Assembly: GCF_018449515.1 (NCBI RefSeq)
Contig: NZ_JAAVUQ010000031.1
Span: 1-64,000, forward strand
DNA from: Caballeronia sp. dw_19
GTDB lineage: Bacteria; Pseudomonadota; Gammaproteobacteria; Burkholderiales; Burkholderiaceae
Reading direction: 5' to 3'
Length of the DNA stretch: 64,000 bases
Part shown: positions 45,411-52,474 of the stretch, in pieces
Position numbering within the stretch: the first letter of the stretch is position 1
Layout: the number at the start of each line of letters is the position of its first letter
Notes under the pieces: generated by a model
Seen by the model: the letters and a program-made list of their open reading frames with translations, nothing else
Told to the model about the DNA's origin: nothing
Database searches by the model: none
Program-made: the position numbers and the translations under genes

Positions 45411-46955
45411 TTAGGAAAGCTGCGGATTCAGCTTCTCGACCTTCGAATGCAGCTTGTTCAGTGCCGCGAGATATGCCTTCGCCGACGCCGCCACGATATC
45501 CGGGTCCGTGCCCACGCCGTTCACGATCCGGCCGCTCTTCGACAAACGCACGGTCACTTCGCCCTGAGCCTGCGTACCCGTGGTAATGGCGTTCACCGAA
45601 TACAGCACCAGCTCGGCGCCGCTCGTCACCTTCGATTCGATCGCGTGCAGCGTGGCATCGACCGGGCCGTTACCTCGCGATTCACCCTGCACTTCGATAC
45701 CATCGACCGCAAACACCACACGCGCATGCGGCTGCTCACCCGTTTCCGAATGCTGAGCCAGCGACACGAAGCGGAACGTTTCCTTCGCCTGCATTTCCGC
45801 TGATTCTTCGGAGACGATCGCCATGATGTCTTCATCGAAGATCTCGGATTTACGATCGGCGAGTTCCTTGAAGCGCACGAACGCGGCGTTCACATCCGTT
45901 TCCGATTCCAGCGTCACGCCGAGATCTTCCAGGCGCTGCTTGAACGCGTTACGACCCGACAACTTGCCGAGCACGATCTTGTTGGTCGCCCAGCCCACGT
46001 CTTCGGCACGCATGATCTCGTAGGTATCGCGCGCTTTGAGCACGCCATCCTGGTGAATGCCGGAAGCATGCGCAAACGCGTTCGCGCCGACCACAGCCTT
46101 GTTCGGCTGCACGACAAAACCGGTGATCTGCGAGACGAGCTTCGAGGTCGGCACAATATGCGTTGTATCGATACCGAGTTCCAGCCCGTAGTAATCCTTG
46201 CGCGTTTTCATCGCCATCACGACTTCTTCCAGCGCCGTGTTGCCCGCGCGCTCGCCGAGGCCGTTGATGGTGCACTCAATCTGACGCGCGCCGCCGATAT
46301 GCACGCCGGCCAGGGAATTCGCGACCGCCATGCCGAGGTCATCGTGGCAATGCACGGACCACACCGCCTTGTCCGAATTCGGCACGCGTTCGCGGATGGT
46401 CTTGATCAGGTTGCCGTAGCCTTCCGGCACGGCGTAGCCAACCGTATCGGGAATATTGATGATGGTCGCGCCTTCATCGATCACTGCTTCCAGCACGCGG
46501 CACAGGAAATCGAGATCCGAACGGCTGCCGTCTTCCGGCGAGAACTCGACGTCGTCGGTGAACTTGCGCGCGAAACGCGTGGCGAGACGCGCCTGCTCGT
46601 AGACCTGATCCGCGCTCATGCGCAGCTTCTTTTCCATATGCAGCGCCGACGTGGCAATGAACGTATGGATACGGAAGTGATCGGCGGGCTTCAGAGCATC
46701 GGCGGCGCGCTGGATGTCTTTATCGTTGGCGCGGGCCAGCGAGCAGATCGTGCTGTCCTTGATCAGGCCGGCAATGGTATGAATGGCGTCGAAATCGCCG
46801 TTCGAGCTGGCCGCAAAGCCTGCTTCGATCACATCGACCTTCATCCGTTCGAGCGCCTTCGCGATCCGGATCTTCTCGTCCTTCGTCATCGACGCGCCGG
46901 GGGATTGCTCGCCATCGCGCAAGGTCGTGTCGAAAATGATCAGTTTGTCTGCCAT
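45411..46955 (-). CDS. leuA: 2-Isopropylmalate synthase
   Basis: This 514-residue enzyme condenses acetyl-CoA with 2-oxoisovalerate, the committed step of leucine synthesis. The TIM-barrel catalytic domain starts with the [16 protein letters not shown] signature and contains the metal-binding [12 protein letters not shown]. The C-terminal regulatory domain (after about residue 395; VEKLNPQLS end) binds leucine for feedback inhibition. A GGAG-type ribosome site precedes the ATG. It is preceded by its own promoter and a leucine-rich leader peptide gene, so it is probably controlled by attenuation as well as feedback. It lies downstream of pssA, beyond a terminator. Confidence 0.97.
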
Positions 46956-47022
46956 GTCGGGCTCCAGTGGGGAGTTTTAGAGTGTTGAAAACGGTGGGGA
47001 AAAACAATACGGAATCCGGGTG

Positions 47023-47045
47023 TTCGCGCCACCGCTGGCGTCGAA
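47023..47045 (-). promoter_or_regulatory. Hairpin between leuA leader peptide and leuA
   Basis: Read leftward, TTCGACGCCA and TGGCGCGAA form a stem of nine pairs with one bulge around a GCGG loop; a T-run (TTGTTTTT) follows 18 bases later. Its TGGCGCG strand could alternatively pair with the GCGCGCC at the end of the leader-peptide gene, which would give the mutually exclusive structures expected of an attenuator. The distance to the T-run is long for a standard terminator, so the exact terminator is uncertain. Confidence 0.4.
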
Positions 47046-47077
47046 AACCACGAACGAGCAGACGGGAGGCGGGAAGC

Positions 47078-47164
47078 TTAGCGCGGCAGGCGCGCTAGTA
47101 GCGGTAGCGCGCGTAGCGGCGCACCAGCTAGGAAAAACGAGAGGGGATGGGCGAAAAAAATCAT
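47078..47164 (-). CDS. leuL: Leucine-rich leader peptide of leuA (attenuator)
   Basis: This 28-codon open frame begins ATG-ATT-TTT-TTC and encodes MIFFAHPLSFFLAGAPLRAL followed by PLLARLPR. Seven of 28 codons are Leu, and five of these are CTA, a codon I rarely see in neighbouring genes. The CTA cluster overlaps a perfect 8-bp hairpin (GCGCGCTA 47090-47097 with TAGCGCGC 47105-47112). Ribosome stalling there under leucine shortage would open the hairpin, as in classical amino-acid attenuation. The predicted transcription start falls on the A of the ATG, so translation would be leaderless. It ends 122 bases before leuA. I name it leuL by role; no search was done. Confidence 0.75.
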   Translation of the reverse strand: MIFFAHPLSFFLAGAPLRALPLLARLPR

Positions 47165-47170
47165 TTGCAG

Positions 47171-47199
47171 ACTATAACGAGATTTTTGGGAGCGTGCAA
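47171..47199 (-). promoter_or_regulatory. Sigma-70 promoter of the leuA transcript
   Basis: Reading leftward, TTGCAC (47199-47194) and TATAGT (47176-47171) are separated by exactly 17 bases, close to consensus at both hexamers. With the -10 at -12 to -7, the first transcribed base is predicted at 47164, the first base of the leader-peptide ATG. Confidence 0.75.
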
Positions 47200-47264
47200 T
47201 TGGGCTTTCCGATCGATCCGATTGACTTTACCCGCATGGTTTTGGACCACGCGGCGCCCAAAAG

Positions 47265-47299
47265 CAAAAAGCGCGCACCGGGTTCAAGCCGATGCGCGC
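47265..47299 (-). terminator. Terminator of psd-pssA
   Basis: GCGCGCATCGG and CCGGTGCGCGC pair (one G-T wobble) with TTTTTGC following leftward, just past the pssA stop at 47307. It insulates leuA, which has its own promoter about 65 bases on. Confidence 0.85.
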
Positions 47300-47306
47300 G
47301 GTTCTT

Positions 47307-48170
47307 TCAATGCGCTTTTTCAGACGATCTGGCCGGATTCGGCCGGCCGCGTATGGCCATGTACCCCCACCATGCGTAACCGGAAAAACCGTACAACACG
47401 AACAAGCCGAACAACATCAACGGCGGATCCGACGACACCAGCACAAACGCCACCACCACCAGCAGCACGCCGGCGAACGGGACACGAAAGCGCACATCGA
47501 GCGCCTTGCCGCTGTAGAACGGTGCGTTCGATACCATCGTGACACCGGCATAGATGGTCAGCGCAAACGCCACCCACGGCAGCCAGACCAGCTTCAGCGG
47601 CACGCGGTTGTCGGTAGCGAGCCACACGAAACCCGCGATCAGCGCCGCCGCTGCCGGGCTCGGCAGGCCCTGGAAATAGCGTTTATCGACCACGCCTACG
47701 TTCGTATTGAAGCGCGCAAGACGCAATGCCGCACCCGAGCAATAGACGAACGCCGCGAGCCAGCCCCAGCGGCCCAGGTCCTTCAGGATCCATTCGTACA
47801 TCACCAGCGCGGGCGCCACGCCAAACGAGACCATGTCCGAGAGGCTGTCGAACTGCTCGCCGAACGCGCTCTGCGTATGCGTCATGCGCGCGACCCGGCC
47901 GTCCATGCCATCCAGCACCATGGCTACGAAGATCGCGATGGCCGCGATCTCGAAGCGCACGTTCATAGCCTGAACGACCGCGAAAAAGCCGCAGAACAAC
48001 GCGGCCGTGGTGAACGCGTTGGGCAGCAGGTAAATGCCGCGCTTCCTCAAAAACTGTTGCCGCTTCGCACGCCGCGTTTCCAGCACGCCGATGTCCTGCG
48101 CCGACTTGTTACGGCGAAACGCCCGTGGGGGTGTTGCCGTGCTTCGCGTTCGGCGCGGTTTGAGTGCCAT
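47307..48170 (-). CDS. pssA: CDP-diacylglycerol-serine O-phosphatidyltransferase
   Basis: This 287-residue integral membrane CDP-alcohol phosphatidyltransferase makes phosphatidylserine from CDP-diacylglycerol and serine. The family motif DG..AR...G...D...D is visible in DGMDGRVARM...FGEQFDSLSDMVSFG. An N-terminal basic extension of about 50 residues precedes the first membrane helix. The start at 48170 follows a GGAGGACTCG site. It lies 66 bases after psd, so the two successive steps to phosphatidylethanolamine are encoded together. Confidence 0.95.
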   Translation of the reverse strand: MALKPRRTRSTATPPRAFRRNKSAQDIGVLETRRAKRQQFLRKRGIYLLPNAFTTAALFCGFFAVVQAMNVRFEIAAIAIFVAMVLDGMDGRVARMTHTQSAFGEQFDSLSDMVSFGVAPALVMYEWILKDLGRWGWLAAFVYCSGAALRLARFNTNVGVVDKRYFQGLPSPAAAALIAGFVWLATDNRVPLKLVWLPWVAFALTIYAGVTMVSNAPFYSGKALDVRFRVPFAGVLLVVVAFVLVSSDPPLMLFGLFVLYGFSGYAWWGYMAIRGRPNPARSSEKAH

Positions 48171-48236
48171 CGAGTCCTCCGTTGTGCAGCCTGGTTTTAC
48201 CGCTTTATTTGTACTGATTCTCTGCCGGTTCACTGA

Positions 48237-48881
48237 CTACTCTGCGAACTCAGCAAGGATGGTAGACGAGGCCGACACCTTCTCGCCAATCGCCACCCGC
48301 GGACGGCTGCCCACCGGCAGATACACATCGACTCGCGATCCAAAGCGGATAAAGCCATAACGCTGGCCACGGTTAAGCGGCTCGCCAACGTGGACGTAGC
48401 ACAAAATACGCCGCGCGATCAGTCCGGCGATCTGCACCGAAGTCACCGTATGCCCTGCCGCCGTCTGGATCACGATCGCATTGCGTTCGTTCTCGGTCGA
48501 GGCTTTATCGACGGCTGCATTGAGATACGAACCGGGAAAGTACTCGACCTTGCTGATAGCGCCATCGACCGGCGAGCGCTGCGAGTGGACATTGAACACG
48601 TTCATGAACACGCTGATCTTCAGCGCTTCGCGGCCCGCGTAAGGGTCGTGCGCGGTTTCCACGGCAACGATACGGCCGTCTGCCGGACACAGCACGGCGT
48701 TCGCCTGAACGGGAATCGGCCGGGCGGGGTCACGGAAAAACTGGACGACGAAGATCGTCAATAGCCAGAACGGCCAGGCAAAACCAAAGCCGCCGATGGC
48801 CTGGATCAACACGGCAATGACAGCCGCAATGGCAATAAACGGCCAGCCTTCACGCGCGATGATCGGATGTGGATAGTTCAT
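48237..48881 (-). CDS. psd: Phosphatidylserine decarboxylase proenzyme
   Basis: This 214-residue pyruvoyl enzyme converts phosphatidylserine to phosphatidylethanolamine. The self-cleavage site is seen as Gly-Ser in [12 protein letters not shown] near the C-terminus, giving a small alpha chain with an N-terminal pyruvoyl group. The length matches the short archaeal-type/Burkholderia form, not the longer E. coli form. An N-terminal hydrophobic segment anchors it to the membrane. It lies downstream of the ilvC terminator and upstream of pssA. Confidence 0.94.
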
Positions 48882-48919
48882 GAACGAGTTCTATGTTTTT
48901 AGTAAAACCGTAGGATAGC

Positions 48920-48955
48920 AAAAGCCGTCCGGCGCCAAGCGACACCGGACGGCTT
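48920..48955 (-). terminator. Terminator of ilvI-ilvH-ilvC
   Basis: AAGCCGTCCGG and CCGGACGGCTTTT pair perfectly around a 12-base loop, with a T-run leftward, 63 bases past the ilvC stop. A second short hairpin (GACCGG/CCGGTC) lies just before it. Confidence 0.88.
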
Positions 48956-49017
48956 GCGGTCTTCACCAGGACCGGCATACGAGGCCGGTCGTTCAGCTTT
49001 TTAAGTTCTGAAGCTGC

Positions 49018-50094
<1,077 letters not shown>

Positions 50095-50104
50095 TCAGGC
50101 GCTC

Positions 50105-50596
50105 TCAGACCTTCAGGATTCGCTCGCCCCGGCCAATGCCGGAACTGCCTGTGCGCACGGTCTCGAGAATTGCCGTTGCGTCCAGCCCCTGAATAAATGC
50201 GTCGAGCTTGTCGCTCGCGCCCGTCAGTTCCATCGTGTAGCTTTTTTCGGTAACGTCGATGATGCGGCCGCGGAAGATGTCCGCCATCCGCTTCATCTCT
50301 TCCCGTTCCTTACCGACCGCTCTCACCTTGATCAGCATCAGCTCGCGCTCAATGTGGGCGCCCTCTGTCAGGTCGACCACTTTCACCACCTCGATCAGGC
50401 GGTTCAGGTGCTTCGTGATCTGTTCGATCACGTCATCCGAGCCAATGGAAACGATGGTCAGCCGCGACAGCGAACTGTCTTCGGTCGGCGCCACCGTCAA
50501 GGTTTCAATGTTGTAGCCACGCGCGGAAAAGAGCCCGACGACACGCGATAACGCGCCCGGTTCGTTTTCCAGCAGCACGGAAATAATGTGTCTCAT
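50105..50596 (-). CDS. ilvH: Acetolactate synthase small (regulatory) subunit
   Basis: This 163-residue protein has an N-terminal ACT domain (RHIISVLLENEPGALSRVVGLFSARGYNIETL) that binds valine and a C-terminal activation domain. It raises the activity of the large subunit and confers feedback inhibition. It lies 114 bases downstream of ilvI and 70 upstream of ilvC. Confidence 0.96.
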   Translation of the reverse strand: MRHIISVLLENEPGALSRVVGLFSARGYNIETLTVAPTEDSSLSRLTIVSIGSDDVIEQITKHLNRLIEVVKVVDLTEGAHIERELMLIKVRAVGKEREEMKRMADIFRGRIIDVTEKSYTMELTGASDKLDAFIQGLDATAILETVRTGSSGIGRGERILKV

Positions 50597-50710
50597 GATA
50601 GGTGCGTTCCTGATTTATCCAGTTAGATAGCTTGTTTTCGCGAGACTCGTGCGCGGCCGGACGTCTTTTGTGGAGACGGGCGCGCGCGAGCCGCGCTTGG
50701 GAAAACAGCG

Positions 50711-52474
50711 TTATAGATCTTCCGATCCGAGCAGCATTTCCGTGATGCCCTTGCCTGCCTGGACCATCGGAAACACGTTTTCGGTGGGATCTGTCTGGAA
50801 GTCGAGGAACACCGTGCGATCCTTCAGGCGCAGTGCTTCTTTCAGCGCCGGTTCGACGTCGCGCGTGTGCTCGATGCGCATGCCCACGTGACCATAAGCC
50901 TCAGCCAGCTTCACGAAGTCAGGCAGCGCGTCCATGTAAGAACTGGAGTAGCGCTTCTTGTATTCGATCTGCTGCCACTGGCGAACCATGCCGAGATAGC
51001 GGTTGTTCAGCGAGATGATCTTGATCGGCGTGTTGTATTGCTTGCACGTCGACAATTCCTGGATGCACATCTGGACCGAGCCTTCGCCCGTGATGCACAA
51101 GACCTCGTCGTCCGGGTGCGCCATCTTCACGCCCATGGCCGCCGGCAAGCCGAAGCCCATGGTGCCGAGACCACCTGAATTGATCCATCGGCGCGGCTTG
51201 TTGAAGCGATAGAACTGCGCCGCCCACATTTGATGCTGGCCGACGTCCGAACAAACGAATGCTTCGCCGTCGGTCAGTTCCCACGCCTTTTCGACCACGT
51301 ACTGCGGCTTGATGATCTCGCTTGCACGGTCGAACTTGAGGCAGTCCTTCGAACGCCACGCCTCGATGTCCTTCCACCAGTCGGCCAGCGCCGCCGTGTC
51401 CGGACCGTGTTCGGCCGTCTGCAACTGTTCGATCAACTCTTTCAACACTTCCTTCACGTCGCCGACAATCGGAATATCGACCTTCACGCGCTTGGAAATG
51501 GACGACGGATCAATGTCGATGTGAATGATCTTCTTCGCATGCGACGCGAAATGCTCCGGATCACCGATCACGCGGTCATCGAAACGCGCGCCGATCGCGA
51601 TCAGCACATCGCAATGCTGCATGGCCATGTTGGCTTCGTACGTGCCGTGCATGCCGAGCATGCCGAGGAATTTCTTGTTGTCCGCGCGATAACCGCCCAG
51701 GCCCATCAGCGTATTCGTCACCGGATAACCAAGCAGGTCGGCGAACTGGTTCAACTCACGCGCCGCATTCGCCAGGATAATGCCGCCGCCCGTGTAGATG
51801 TACGGACGCTTCGCCGAGAGCAACAACTGCACGGCCTTGCGGATCTGGCCCGAATGGCCTTTGGTGACCGGATTGTACGAACGCAGCGAGACGGATTTGA
51901 TTGGTTCGTACTTGCACGGCGTCTTCGACACATCTTTCGGAATGTCGATCAGCACCGGGCCTGGACGTCCCGTCCGGGCGATGTAAAACGCCTTCTTGAT
52001 GGTCAAAGCAAGCTCGCGCACGTCCTTCACAAGGAAGTTGTGCTTGACGCATGGACGCGTAATGCCGACCGTATCGCATTCCTGGAACGCATCCTGGCCG
52101 ATTGCCGCGGTAGGAACCTGGCCGCTGATGATCACGAGCGGGATGGAATCCATGTAGGCAGTGGCAATACCGGTCACCGCATTGGTGACGCCGGGGCCAG
52201 AGGTCACGAGGCACACGCCGACATTACCCGTGGAGCGCGCGTAGGCGTCAGCGGCATGAACCGCGGCCTGTTCGTGGCGCACGAGGATGTGCTGGATCTG
52301 GTCCTGCTTGTACAACTCGTCGTAGATATAGAGTACCGAGCCGCCGGGATAGCCCCAAATGAACTCGACTTTTTCGTCAGCGAGCGCGCGCATGAGCACG
52401 GTGCCGCCGATGGATTCAGCTTCGAGGGGGGGAGTCGTATCCGACGTGGAGAATTCCGCGCTGGGCATATTCAT
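50711..52474 (-). CDS. ilvI: Acetolactate synthase large (catalytic) subunit
   Basis: This 587-residue thiamine-diphosphate enzyme condenses pyruvate with pyruvate or 2-oxobutyrate, the first common step of valine, leucine and isoleucine synthesis. The catalytic Glu is in LVRHEQAAVHAADAYAR, the ThDP/Mg motif begins GEGSVQMCIQELSTCKQYN (GEGS in place of the usual GDGS) and ends at Asn-Asn, and FAD-binding sequence lies mid-protein. It could equally be named ilvB. It heads the operon, with a roughly 140-base leader and a sigma-70 promoter upstream. Confidence 0.96.
   Translation of the reverse strand: MNMPSAEFSTSDTTPPLEAESIGGTVLMRALADEKVEFIWGYPGGSVLYIYDELYKQDQIQHILVRHEQAAVHAADAYARSTGNVGVCLVTSGPGVTNAVTGIATAYMDSIPLVIISGQVPTAAIGQDAFQECDTVGITRPCVKHNFLVKDVRELALTIKKAFYIARTGRPGPVLIDIPKDVSKTPCKYEPIKSVSLRSYNPVTKGHSGQIRKAVQLLLSAKRPYIYTGGGIILANAARELNQFADLLGYPVTNTLMGLGGYRADNKKFLGMLGMHGTYEANMAMQHCDVLIAIGARFDDRVIGDPEHFASHAKKIIHIDIDPSSISKRVKVDIPIVGDVKEVLKELIEQLQTAEHGPDTAALADWWKDIEAWRSKDCLKFDRASEIIKPQYVVEKAWELTDGEAFVCSDVGQHQMWAAQFYRFNKPRRWINSGGLGTMGFGLPAAMGVKMAHPDDEVLCITGEGSVQMCIQELSTCKQYNTPIKIISLNNRYLGMVRQWQQIEYKKRYSSSYMDALPDFVKLAEAYGHVGMRIEHTRDVEPALKEALRLKDRTVFLDFQTDPTENVFPMVQAGKGITEMLLGSEDL

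Follow-up and report, generated by a model that had tools for sequence, protein, structure and literature searches.

A probable leaderless leucine leader peptide upstream of leuA in Caballeronia and other Burkholderiales

Upstream of leuA in Caballeronia sp. dw_19 lies a short reading frame rich in leucine codons, preceded so closely by a promoter that its mRNA is predicted to begin at the start codon itself. Here, we analyse this frame and its surroundings in a stretch of 64,000 nucleotides (contig NZ_JAAVUQ010000031.1, positions 1 to 64,000; hereafter, the window) and compare them with leuA upstream regions of related bacteria. Sequence and conservation make it very probable that the frame encodes a leaderless leucine leader peptide that controls leuA. 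It is likely, too, that this leaderless sensor acts together with attenuation, whatever the ending. We propose, tentatively, that in the window's lineage the ending depends on Rho and is gated by ribosome position, through pairing between a C-rich block just past the leader (Y) and a downstream strand (W). The anatomy of the sensor, its conservation, the presence or absence of U-tract terminators among relatives, and the conserved complementarity of Y and W are read directly from the sequences.

The promoter lies on the minus strand, as do all features described below. It consists of a -35 element, TTGCAC (47199-47194), a spacer of 17 nt, and a -10 element, TATAGT (47176-47171), followed by 6 nt and the ATG, the A of which is position 47164. 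The predicted +1 is this same A, and the distance from the -10 element to the ATG leaves no space for a Shine-Dalgarno sequence; a -10 element about 6–7 nt before the start codon is the spacing by which a leaderless mRNA is recognised in sequence. The frame (47164-47078) comprises 28 codons and a TAA stop, encodes MIFFAHPLSFFLAGAPLRALPLLARLPR, and contains seven Leu codons, namely CTC, five CTA and CTG. A short frame that lies upstream of a biosynthetic gene and is enriched in codons for the end product is a mark of an amino-acid attenuator with a leader peptide. Leu count alone is weak evidence (7 Leu in 28 codons, P = 0.014). CTA, however, is rare among genes of the window, making up 16 of 1241 Leu codons (1.3%) in 39 mechanically chosen open reading frames, and the probability of at least five CTA among seven Leu codons is 7e-9 given this background, which is the codon usage of the window's reading frames only. 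A scan for E. coli-type promoters gave no report of the leader promoter, and the -35 element agrees with TTGACA, the E. coli consensus, at only three of six positions. The case for the promoter thus rests on its conservation: the listed family leaders have TTGC(A/G)C, or a sequence close to it, as their -35 element, and the -10 element is likewise conserved. These features had been picked out in an initial annotation of the sequence, which placed the predicted first transcribed base at the ATG, counted the same codons, and called CTA rare; each of these readings stands, and the perfect 8-bp inverted repeat that it reported within the frame (47112-47105 with 47097-47090) does exist as complementarity.

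DNA resembling the leader was matched in 56 of 58 genomes of the genus and in 95 of 249 genomes of the family, the other 154 giving no DNA match. Family regions were selected by such a match (60 taken of the 65 outside the genus) or as named loci close in LeuA, from the 80 named leuA loci fetched (the best 80 of more), so the counts that follow do not describe a random sample of the family; loci L089 and L091, for which no leuA start was obtained, were excluded. A first caller asked for a -10-like hexamer 5–8 nt ahead of an ATG, and for three or more Leu in a short frame. It recognised a leader in 114 of 123 distinct family regions, with the -10 at 6 nt in 55 and at 7 nt in 59. Because this caller presupposes the promoter, the search was redone with the frame alone. 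Leaders were then called in 99 of 121 family regions; over a range of 40 nt, the best -10 fell at 6 nt in 48, at 7 nt in 50 and at 4 nt in one. Of 68 loci outside the family, 39 gave a leader, and among these the -10 stood at 6 or 7 nt in 32, at 8 nt in one and at 1 nt in one, and was absent in five. CTA accounts for 230 of 389 Leu codons (59%) in 55 non-redundant family leaders, and for 52% in 36 Comamonadaceae-type leaders. The initial annotation had made its case depend on conservation of the Leu codons in related genomes, and they are conserved. Its central proposal, a leucine leader peptide without a Shine-Dalgarno sequence, is supported: position, Leu codons and promoter spacing are conserved in the family and, less evenly, in the order.

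The order was sampled as 68 leuA upstream regions from 39 other families, out of 105 genomes with a match. A leaderless Leu-rich frame is present in 30 of the 68, spread over 18 of the 39 families, compared with 8 of 1360 dinucleotide-shuffled sequences. When loci were identified by C-terminal motif alone, 36 of 68 qualified. The -10 then stood at 6 or 7 nt in 23, at 8 nt in one, at 9 nt in four and at 28 nt in one, and was absent in seven; in four of these last seven (L246, L255, L261 and L312) an upstream in-frame ATG had been picked, and an ATG beside a -10 exists. The leader peptides of the order often end LLLRPAR or LLLRLAR, mostly without CTA, so heavy CTA use is a trait of the nearer families. 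At the level of the class, 29 loci were taken of 102 genomes with a match, with no shuffle control. TATAGT, TATATT or TACATT stands 6–7 nt before the ATG of a Leu-rich frame in 8 of these 29; the remaining loci have longer 5′ ends or no clear leader.

Several results weigh against this reading of the leader. No leader was called in nine of the 123 family regions (L003, L005, L006, L119, L131, L133, L134, L136 and L212), although L119 retains a recognisable leader with an altered -10. Calls were also lacking in 20 of the 68 named loci outside the family and in 38 of the 68 order loci, and CTA is mostly unused outside the nearer families. Finally, Rfam at gathering score matched nothing in the leuA region of the window, nor in the 20 loci scanned of the 80 named and the 20 scanned of the 29 at class level. 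Its only hit in the window was a tRNA, and a lax scan of 46900-47320 gave three weak, unrelated matches.

In L003, L006, L212 and L136 the leader frame is broken or gone, and the post-leader block and hairpin described below are still conserved; in L134, the block and the end of the leader remain and the part upstream is replaced. By eye, the frame in L014 (Pandoraea) is longer, its ATG stands 7 nt past a TATATT, and several of its codons are Leu codons, none of them CTA; it is perhaps a drifting version of the leader. In L245, L018, L020 and L021 (three Collimonas and another genome), what appears by eye to be the end of a coding gene, with its own terminator, sits directly before leuA, and no leader was called; this lineage therefore seems to be without the switch. 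Another coding frame's end seems, again by eye, to precede leuA in L041, L051 and L059 (Variovorax) and in L062, L070-L072 and L077, where no Leu leader was called and the context of leuA is possibly different. In 13 of the 29 class-level loci (L215, L219, L220, L226-L230, L233, L236, L237, L240 and L241), the exact motif CCTGGCGAGG lies 6–20 nt past the stop of a Leu-rich frame upstream of leuA. It is absent from the 28 order loci checked and had no Rfam match among the 20 class loci scanned (L227 and L228 being outside the scan), and is possibly a separate leuA leader element.

The presence of a U-tract terminator differs among the lineages. For this comparison, groups were assigned manually from names and sequence, any named locus with no visible leader being left out, and counts refer to loci with a called leader (36 of 37 picked for the Comamonadaceae type, 54 of 55 for the family). 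The rule for a U-tract terminator demands a stem followed immediately by a U-tract, allows loops to 18, and asks for longer and more GC-rich stems. It was set after the results of a first rule, with loops up to 10 and looser stems, which had found terminators in 15 of 36 Comamonadaceae-type, 2 of 3 Cupriavidus, 0 of 9 Oxalobacteraceae-type, 3 of 54 family and 5 of 32 order loci; loops of the Comamonadaceae terminators listed are about 13. By the later rule, every Comamonadaceae-type locus (36 of 36) and every Cupriavidus locus (3 of 3) has a U-tract terminator, a point in favour of transcription attenuation in these sister lineages. Such a terminator was found in one of 32 order loci, in 0 of 9 Oxalobacteraceae/Polynucleobacter-type loci and in 0 of 54 loci of the window's family, with rates in plain shuffles of 0 to 0.03. 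The remark in the initial annotation that the downstream terminator was less clear than the leader was apt, and these counts sharpen it. We therefore do not file the window leader as a classical intrinsic attenuator. In lineages without a U-tract terminator, the 30 nt after the leader stop are rich in C and poor in G (means of 0.41-0.43 and 0.11-0.19, respectively), with at least twice as much C as G in 43 of 54 family, 9 of 9 Oxalobacteraceae/Polynucleobacter-type and 28 of 32 order loci, compared with 0 of 3 in Cupriavidus. The family loci thus have the C-richness expected of a Rho-dependent attenuator, the comparison being with the rest of the same spacer only.

The RNA of the leader and post-leader region was examined in an alignment of the 55 non-redundant family leaders. 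Helix A (47107..47124) pairs GTGCGC (47124-47119) with GCGCGC (47112-47107), carries a CTA codon in its loop, and is paired in 97.3% of cells; its loop-closing pair varies among C-G, U-G and U-A, with two sequences changed on both sides. Helix C (47080..47096) pairs AGCGCG (47096-47091) with CGCGCT (47085-47080), ends at the stop codon, and is paired in 98.5% of cells, with one sequence changed on both sides. Helix B (47090..47112), the hairpin formed by the 8-bp repeat mentioned above, overlaps both. The initial annotation reported this hairpin as covering the CTA cluster and proposed, as a check, to look in an alignment of relatives for a Leu-rich frame with a covarying hairpin. The frame is conserved; helix B, although 90.1% paired, has one of its eight pairs broken in 19 of 55 sequences and a covariation score reached by 232 of 500 shuffles, and we rejected it as a regulatory structure, helices A and C being better kept. 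The single-sequence fold of the window leader is not exceptional (z = -1.15).

Just past the leader stop lies block Y (47063..47073), a conserved C-rich stretch, CCCGCCTCCCG, which is a candidate Rho site and a candidate partner of W. Between block Y and leuA is a further post-leader feature (47023..47045), identified from sequence, alignment, folding and the terminator scan. Strand W has three possible partners: the leader end (X), block Y, or its neighbour Z, with which it would form hairpin T. The Y:W helix is 99.3% paired, with six double-changed cells and a covariation score reached by 0 of 500 shuffles. Hairpin T is not well supported in either register: with a three-base loop it is 87.2% paired, with no double changes and covariation below all shuffles, and in the other register it is 85.2% paired, with double changes at two outer pairs that are unpaired in 26 and 27 of the 55 sequences. 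Taken jointly, helices A, C and T have a covariation score reached by 1 of 500 shuffles, and their double changes are few (6 cells in 4 pairs, reached by 7 and 29 of 500 shuffles). X:W was considered as an antiterminator. It is a 10-pair helix, 95% paired in the 55 sequences, but shows no covariation and has a mean folding probability of at most 0.03, and it was demoted.

These elements suggest how leucine supply could set leuA expression. Transcription would begin no more than about one base from the A of the leader ATG, so that ribosomes would load straight onto the 5′ end. A shortage of charged leucyl-tRNA for CTA would make them stall within the CTA cluster, and with an ample supply they would go on to the stop codon. 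A ribosome at the stop codon would cover part of block Y, allowing strand W to fold into the local hairpin T, and if T persisted after the ribosome left, Y would be single-stranded, and Rho could load and end transcription before leuA. With the ribosome stalled upstream, Y would pair with W and be hidden from Rho, and RNA polymerase would reach leuA. The Comamonadaceae and Cupriavidus relatives would combine the same kind of leaderless sensor with an ordinary intrinsic terminator. Folding in defined ribosome states, with the RNA under the ribosome masked and probabilities averaged over the 55 family sequences, is consistent with this scheme. T reaches 0.55 and Y:W 0.03 with the ribosome at the stop codon, compared with 0.12-0.19 and 0.45-0.51, respectively, with the ribosome stalled upstream. 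This is the right polarity for leucine control, provided that exposed Y is a Rho site. In three of the loci with a broken leader (L003, L006 and L212), the predicted fold is Y:W, six of the eight Y bases pairing with W. This would leave leuA on, a fit that was not predicted in advance; in L136 none of the eight is paired with W and neither fold is predicted.

A number of observations speak against this mechanism. The double changes in Y:W all fall at one pair and perhaps reflect few events, the number of double-changed pairs is no better than in shuffles (450 of 500), and the helix slid by -2 scores 0.121 versus 0.137 for covariation, though it is only 51% paired. The test was moreover tilted toward Y:W, because the helix came from RNAalifold on the same alignment. 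Once the ribosome is released after the stop codon, the equilibrium fold returns to Y:W (0.55; T, 0.17), so the switch needs T to persist kinetically. Untranslated RNA resembles the stalled state (Y:W 0.51, T 0.13). In the window's own sequence, T is predicted at 0.75-1.0, above Y:W, in all states but the stall at the first CTA, where neither T nor Y:W forms. In short, the predicted balance between Y:W and T follows a ribosome at the stop codon when averaged over the family, but does not do so for the window sequence or once the ribosome is released, and covariation is limited. Among relatives, the terminator-bearing Comamonadaceae-type loci are also C-rich past the stop, if more weakly, with C at 0.39, G at 0.21, and 16 of 36 loci having two or more C for each G. 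Their terminator is predicted above 0.5 in every ribosome state in 35-36 of 36 loci, as it is in 3 of 3 Cupriavidus loci, so equilibrium folding cannot discriminate attenuation in these groups. There, complementarity between the leader's ACGGGC and the 5′ arm of the terminator recurs at one place, and beats plain shuffles at 0.05 in 4 of 39 loci singly.

It is also possible that attenuation in the window's lineage is of the classical intrinsic kind, T or an extended form of it being a true terminator despite a distant U stretch, with X or Y as antiterminator. The sister lineages do carry U-tract terminators, X:W is well paired, and the window has TTGTTTTT more than 10 nt past hairpin T. Several relatives, however, have no U stretch at that place, X:W lacks both covariation and folding probability, and the family loci failed the U-tract rule throughout and the looser-stem rule in all but three of 54. 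We consider this reading unlikely, if still worth weighing. Rather improbable, in our judgement, is a translational mechanism, in which translation of the leader alters RNA structure at the leuA ribosome-binding site with no premature termination. It would accommodate the want of a U-tract terminator in the window's lineage, and a leader element pairing with the leuA Shine-Dalgarno sequence is proposed for actinobacterial leuA in the available text of PMC1262725. Terminators in the sister lineages argue against it. Block Y as an anti-Shine-Dalgarno element for leuA offers about 4 bp by eye, not in all sequences, and was dropped on that by-eye evidence. Conservation of the block and hairpin where the leader is broken or gone, and of the block with the leader's end in L134, might mean that the post-leader block acts on its own, as a trans-acting RNA or a protein site, and that the leader is only part of the story. 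This, too, seems improbable to us, given a called leader in 114 of 123 family regions; the Y:W fold of L003, L006 and L212 (not L136) can be explained under attenuation as a switch left on. Leu-rich frames do arise by chance in GC-rich DNA, but a chance frame beside a promoter, without regulation, is made very unlikely by the CTA bias, by spacing and frame conserved across families, and by the 8 of 1360 shuffles noted above.

There is also a broader and more speculative possibility. An old, widespread leaderless leucine attenuator of leuA may exist in the Burkholderiales and possibly in other gammaproteobacterial families (class as defined by GTDB). Its original ending may have been Rho-dependent, via a C-rich site right after the leader stop that the ribosome, by its position, hides or exposes. 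Comamonadaceae and Cupriavidus may each have installed an intrinsic terminator instead, in which case a single sensor would serve with interchangeable terminators.

The presumed regulated gene, leuA (45411..46955), encodes a 2-isopropylmalate synthase of 514 amino acids, which clears both curated LeuA cut-offs (NF002087, 901.2 bits with a cut-off of 729; TIGR00973, 703.3 bits with a cut-off of 598.7). Among the best 80 named loci, the nearest in LeuA are two Caballeronia, at 89%. The gene lies at the end of a one-direction run (45411-52474) comprising ilvB, the small subunit of acetolactate synthase, ilvC, psd, pssA and leuA, such that branched-chain amino-acid genes adjoin the phospholipid genes psd and pssA. 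Between pssA and the leuA promoter is a terminator-like hairpin (47271..47299) with an 11-pair stem, nine of the pairs G-C, and a T tail, TTTTTGCTTT; it may insulate leuA against readthrough from upstream, one such hairpin being found and 0.9 expected from shuffles of the same region. Inspection of 600 bases upstream of ilvB, which was not systematic, called no leader there. The source genome is 9.06 Mb in 153 contigs.

If the proposed sensor is real, a large group of environmental and plant-associated bacteria would have its leucine synthesis controlled by ribosomes that load without a Shine-Dalgarno sequence, and translation of the sensor would also report the state of leaderless initiation, for example under stress. 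Relatives that share the sensor and have either an intrinsic terminator or none that was found would provide a natural test of how the termination step is replaced in attenuator evolution. In the window's lineage, this step is the most interesting question.

As far as searched, the open-paper literature describes no betaproteobacterial leuA leader. A 2004 comparative study of proteobacterial attenuators reportedly names the gamma- and alphaproteobacteria in its abstract. In the available text of a terminator survey (PMC2965389), Burkholderia is mentioned only for transposons. Leaderless mRNAs are known in related organisms: published start-site maps, in the parts available, give 72 genes starting exactly at the start codon in B. 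cenocepacia and 4.67% of primary starts in C. metallidurans. The accessible main text of the B. cenocepacia study does not name leuA, and unannotated frames were there screened only at ≥50 amino acids, so that a leader of this size would easily be missed. A hint from elsewhere comes from P. putida, where LeuA is given as raised in a truA mutant, with 4.2 as the table entry under a heading outside the available text; that text also states that attenuated his operons of enterobacteria are derepressed without TruA.

Like leuL of E. coli and Salmonella, the window leader is a leader peptide with Leu codons upstream of leuA. In E. coli leuL, these are rare CUA codons, and the mRNA has an ordinary 5′ UTR. 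The window leader, by contrast, appears leaderless, belongs to a lineage in which no U-tract terminator was found, and has no Rfam match. In tnaC and in Salmonella corL and mgtL, leader translation decides access to a Rho site, the signal sensed being tryptophan or magnesium. The window leader would differ in reading leucine via Leu codons, and a role of Rho is here a proposal. E. coli leuL has 28 amino acids, 4 of them Leu, according to the portion of PMC6123439 available. Also comparable are the actinobacterial leuA LEU element and cys leaders, which belong to a different phylum and have a Leu-rich (or Cys-rich) short upstream frame with no obvious terminator; in the accessible part of the source, Rho is raised as a possibility for the cys leaders and tna is cited as Rho-dependent (PMC1262725). 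The initial annotation judged a leaderless attenuator peptide unusual, and it is, though not unprecedented: the trpL leader of Sinorhizobium meliloti (rnTrpL, encoding peTrpL) is one, as described in the available text of PMC7298713. That leader, of an alphaproteobacterium, differs from the one described here in that it responds to tryptophan rather than leucine, encodes 14 amino acids, and works with a transcription terminator. Leaderless leader peptides as such are thus already known, and what our comparisons support well is a leaderless leucine leader for leuA that is conserved and, as far as searched, unnamed.
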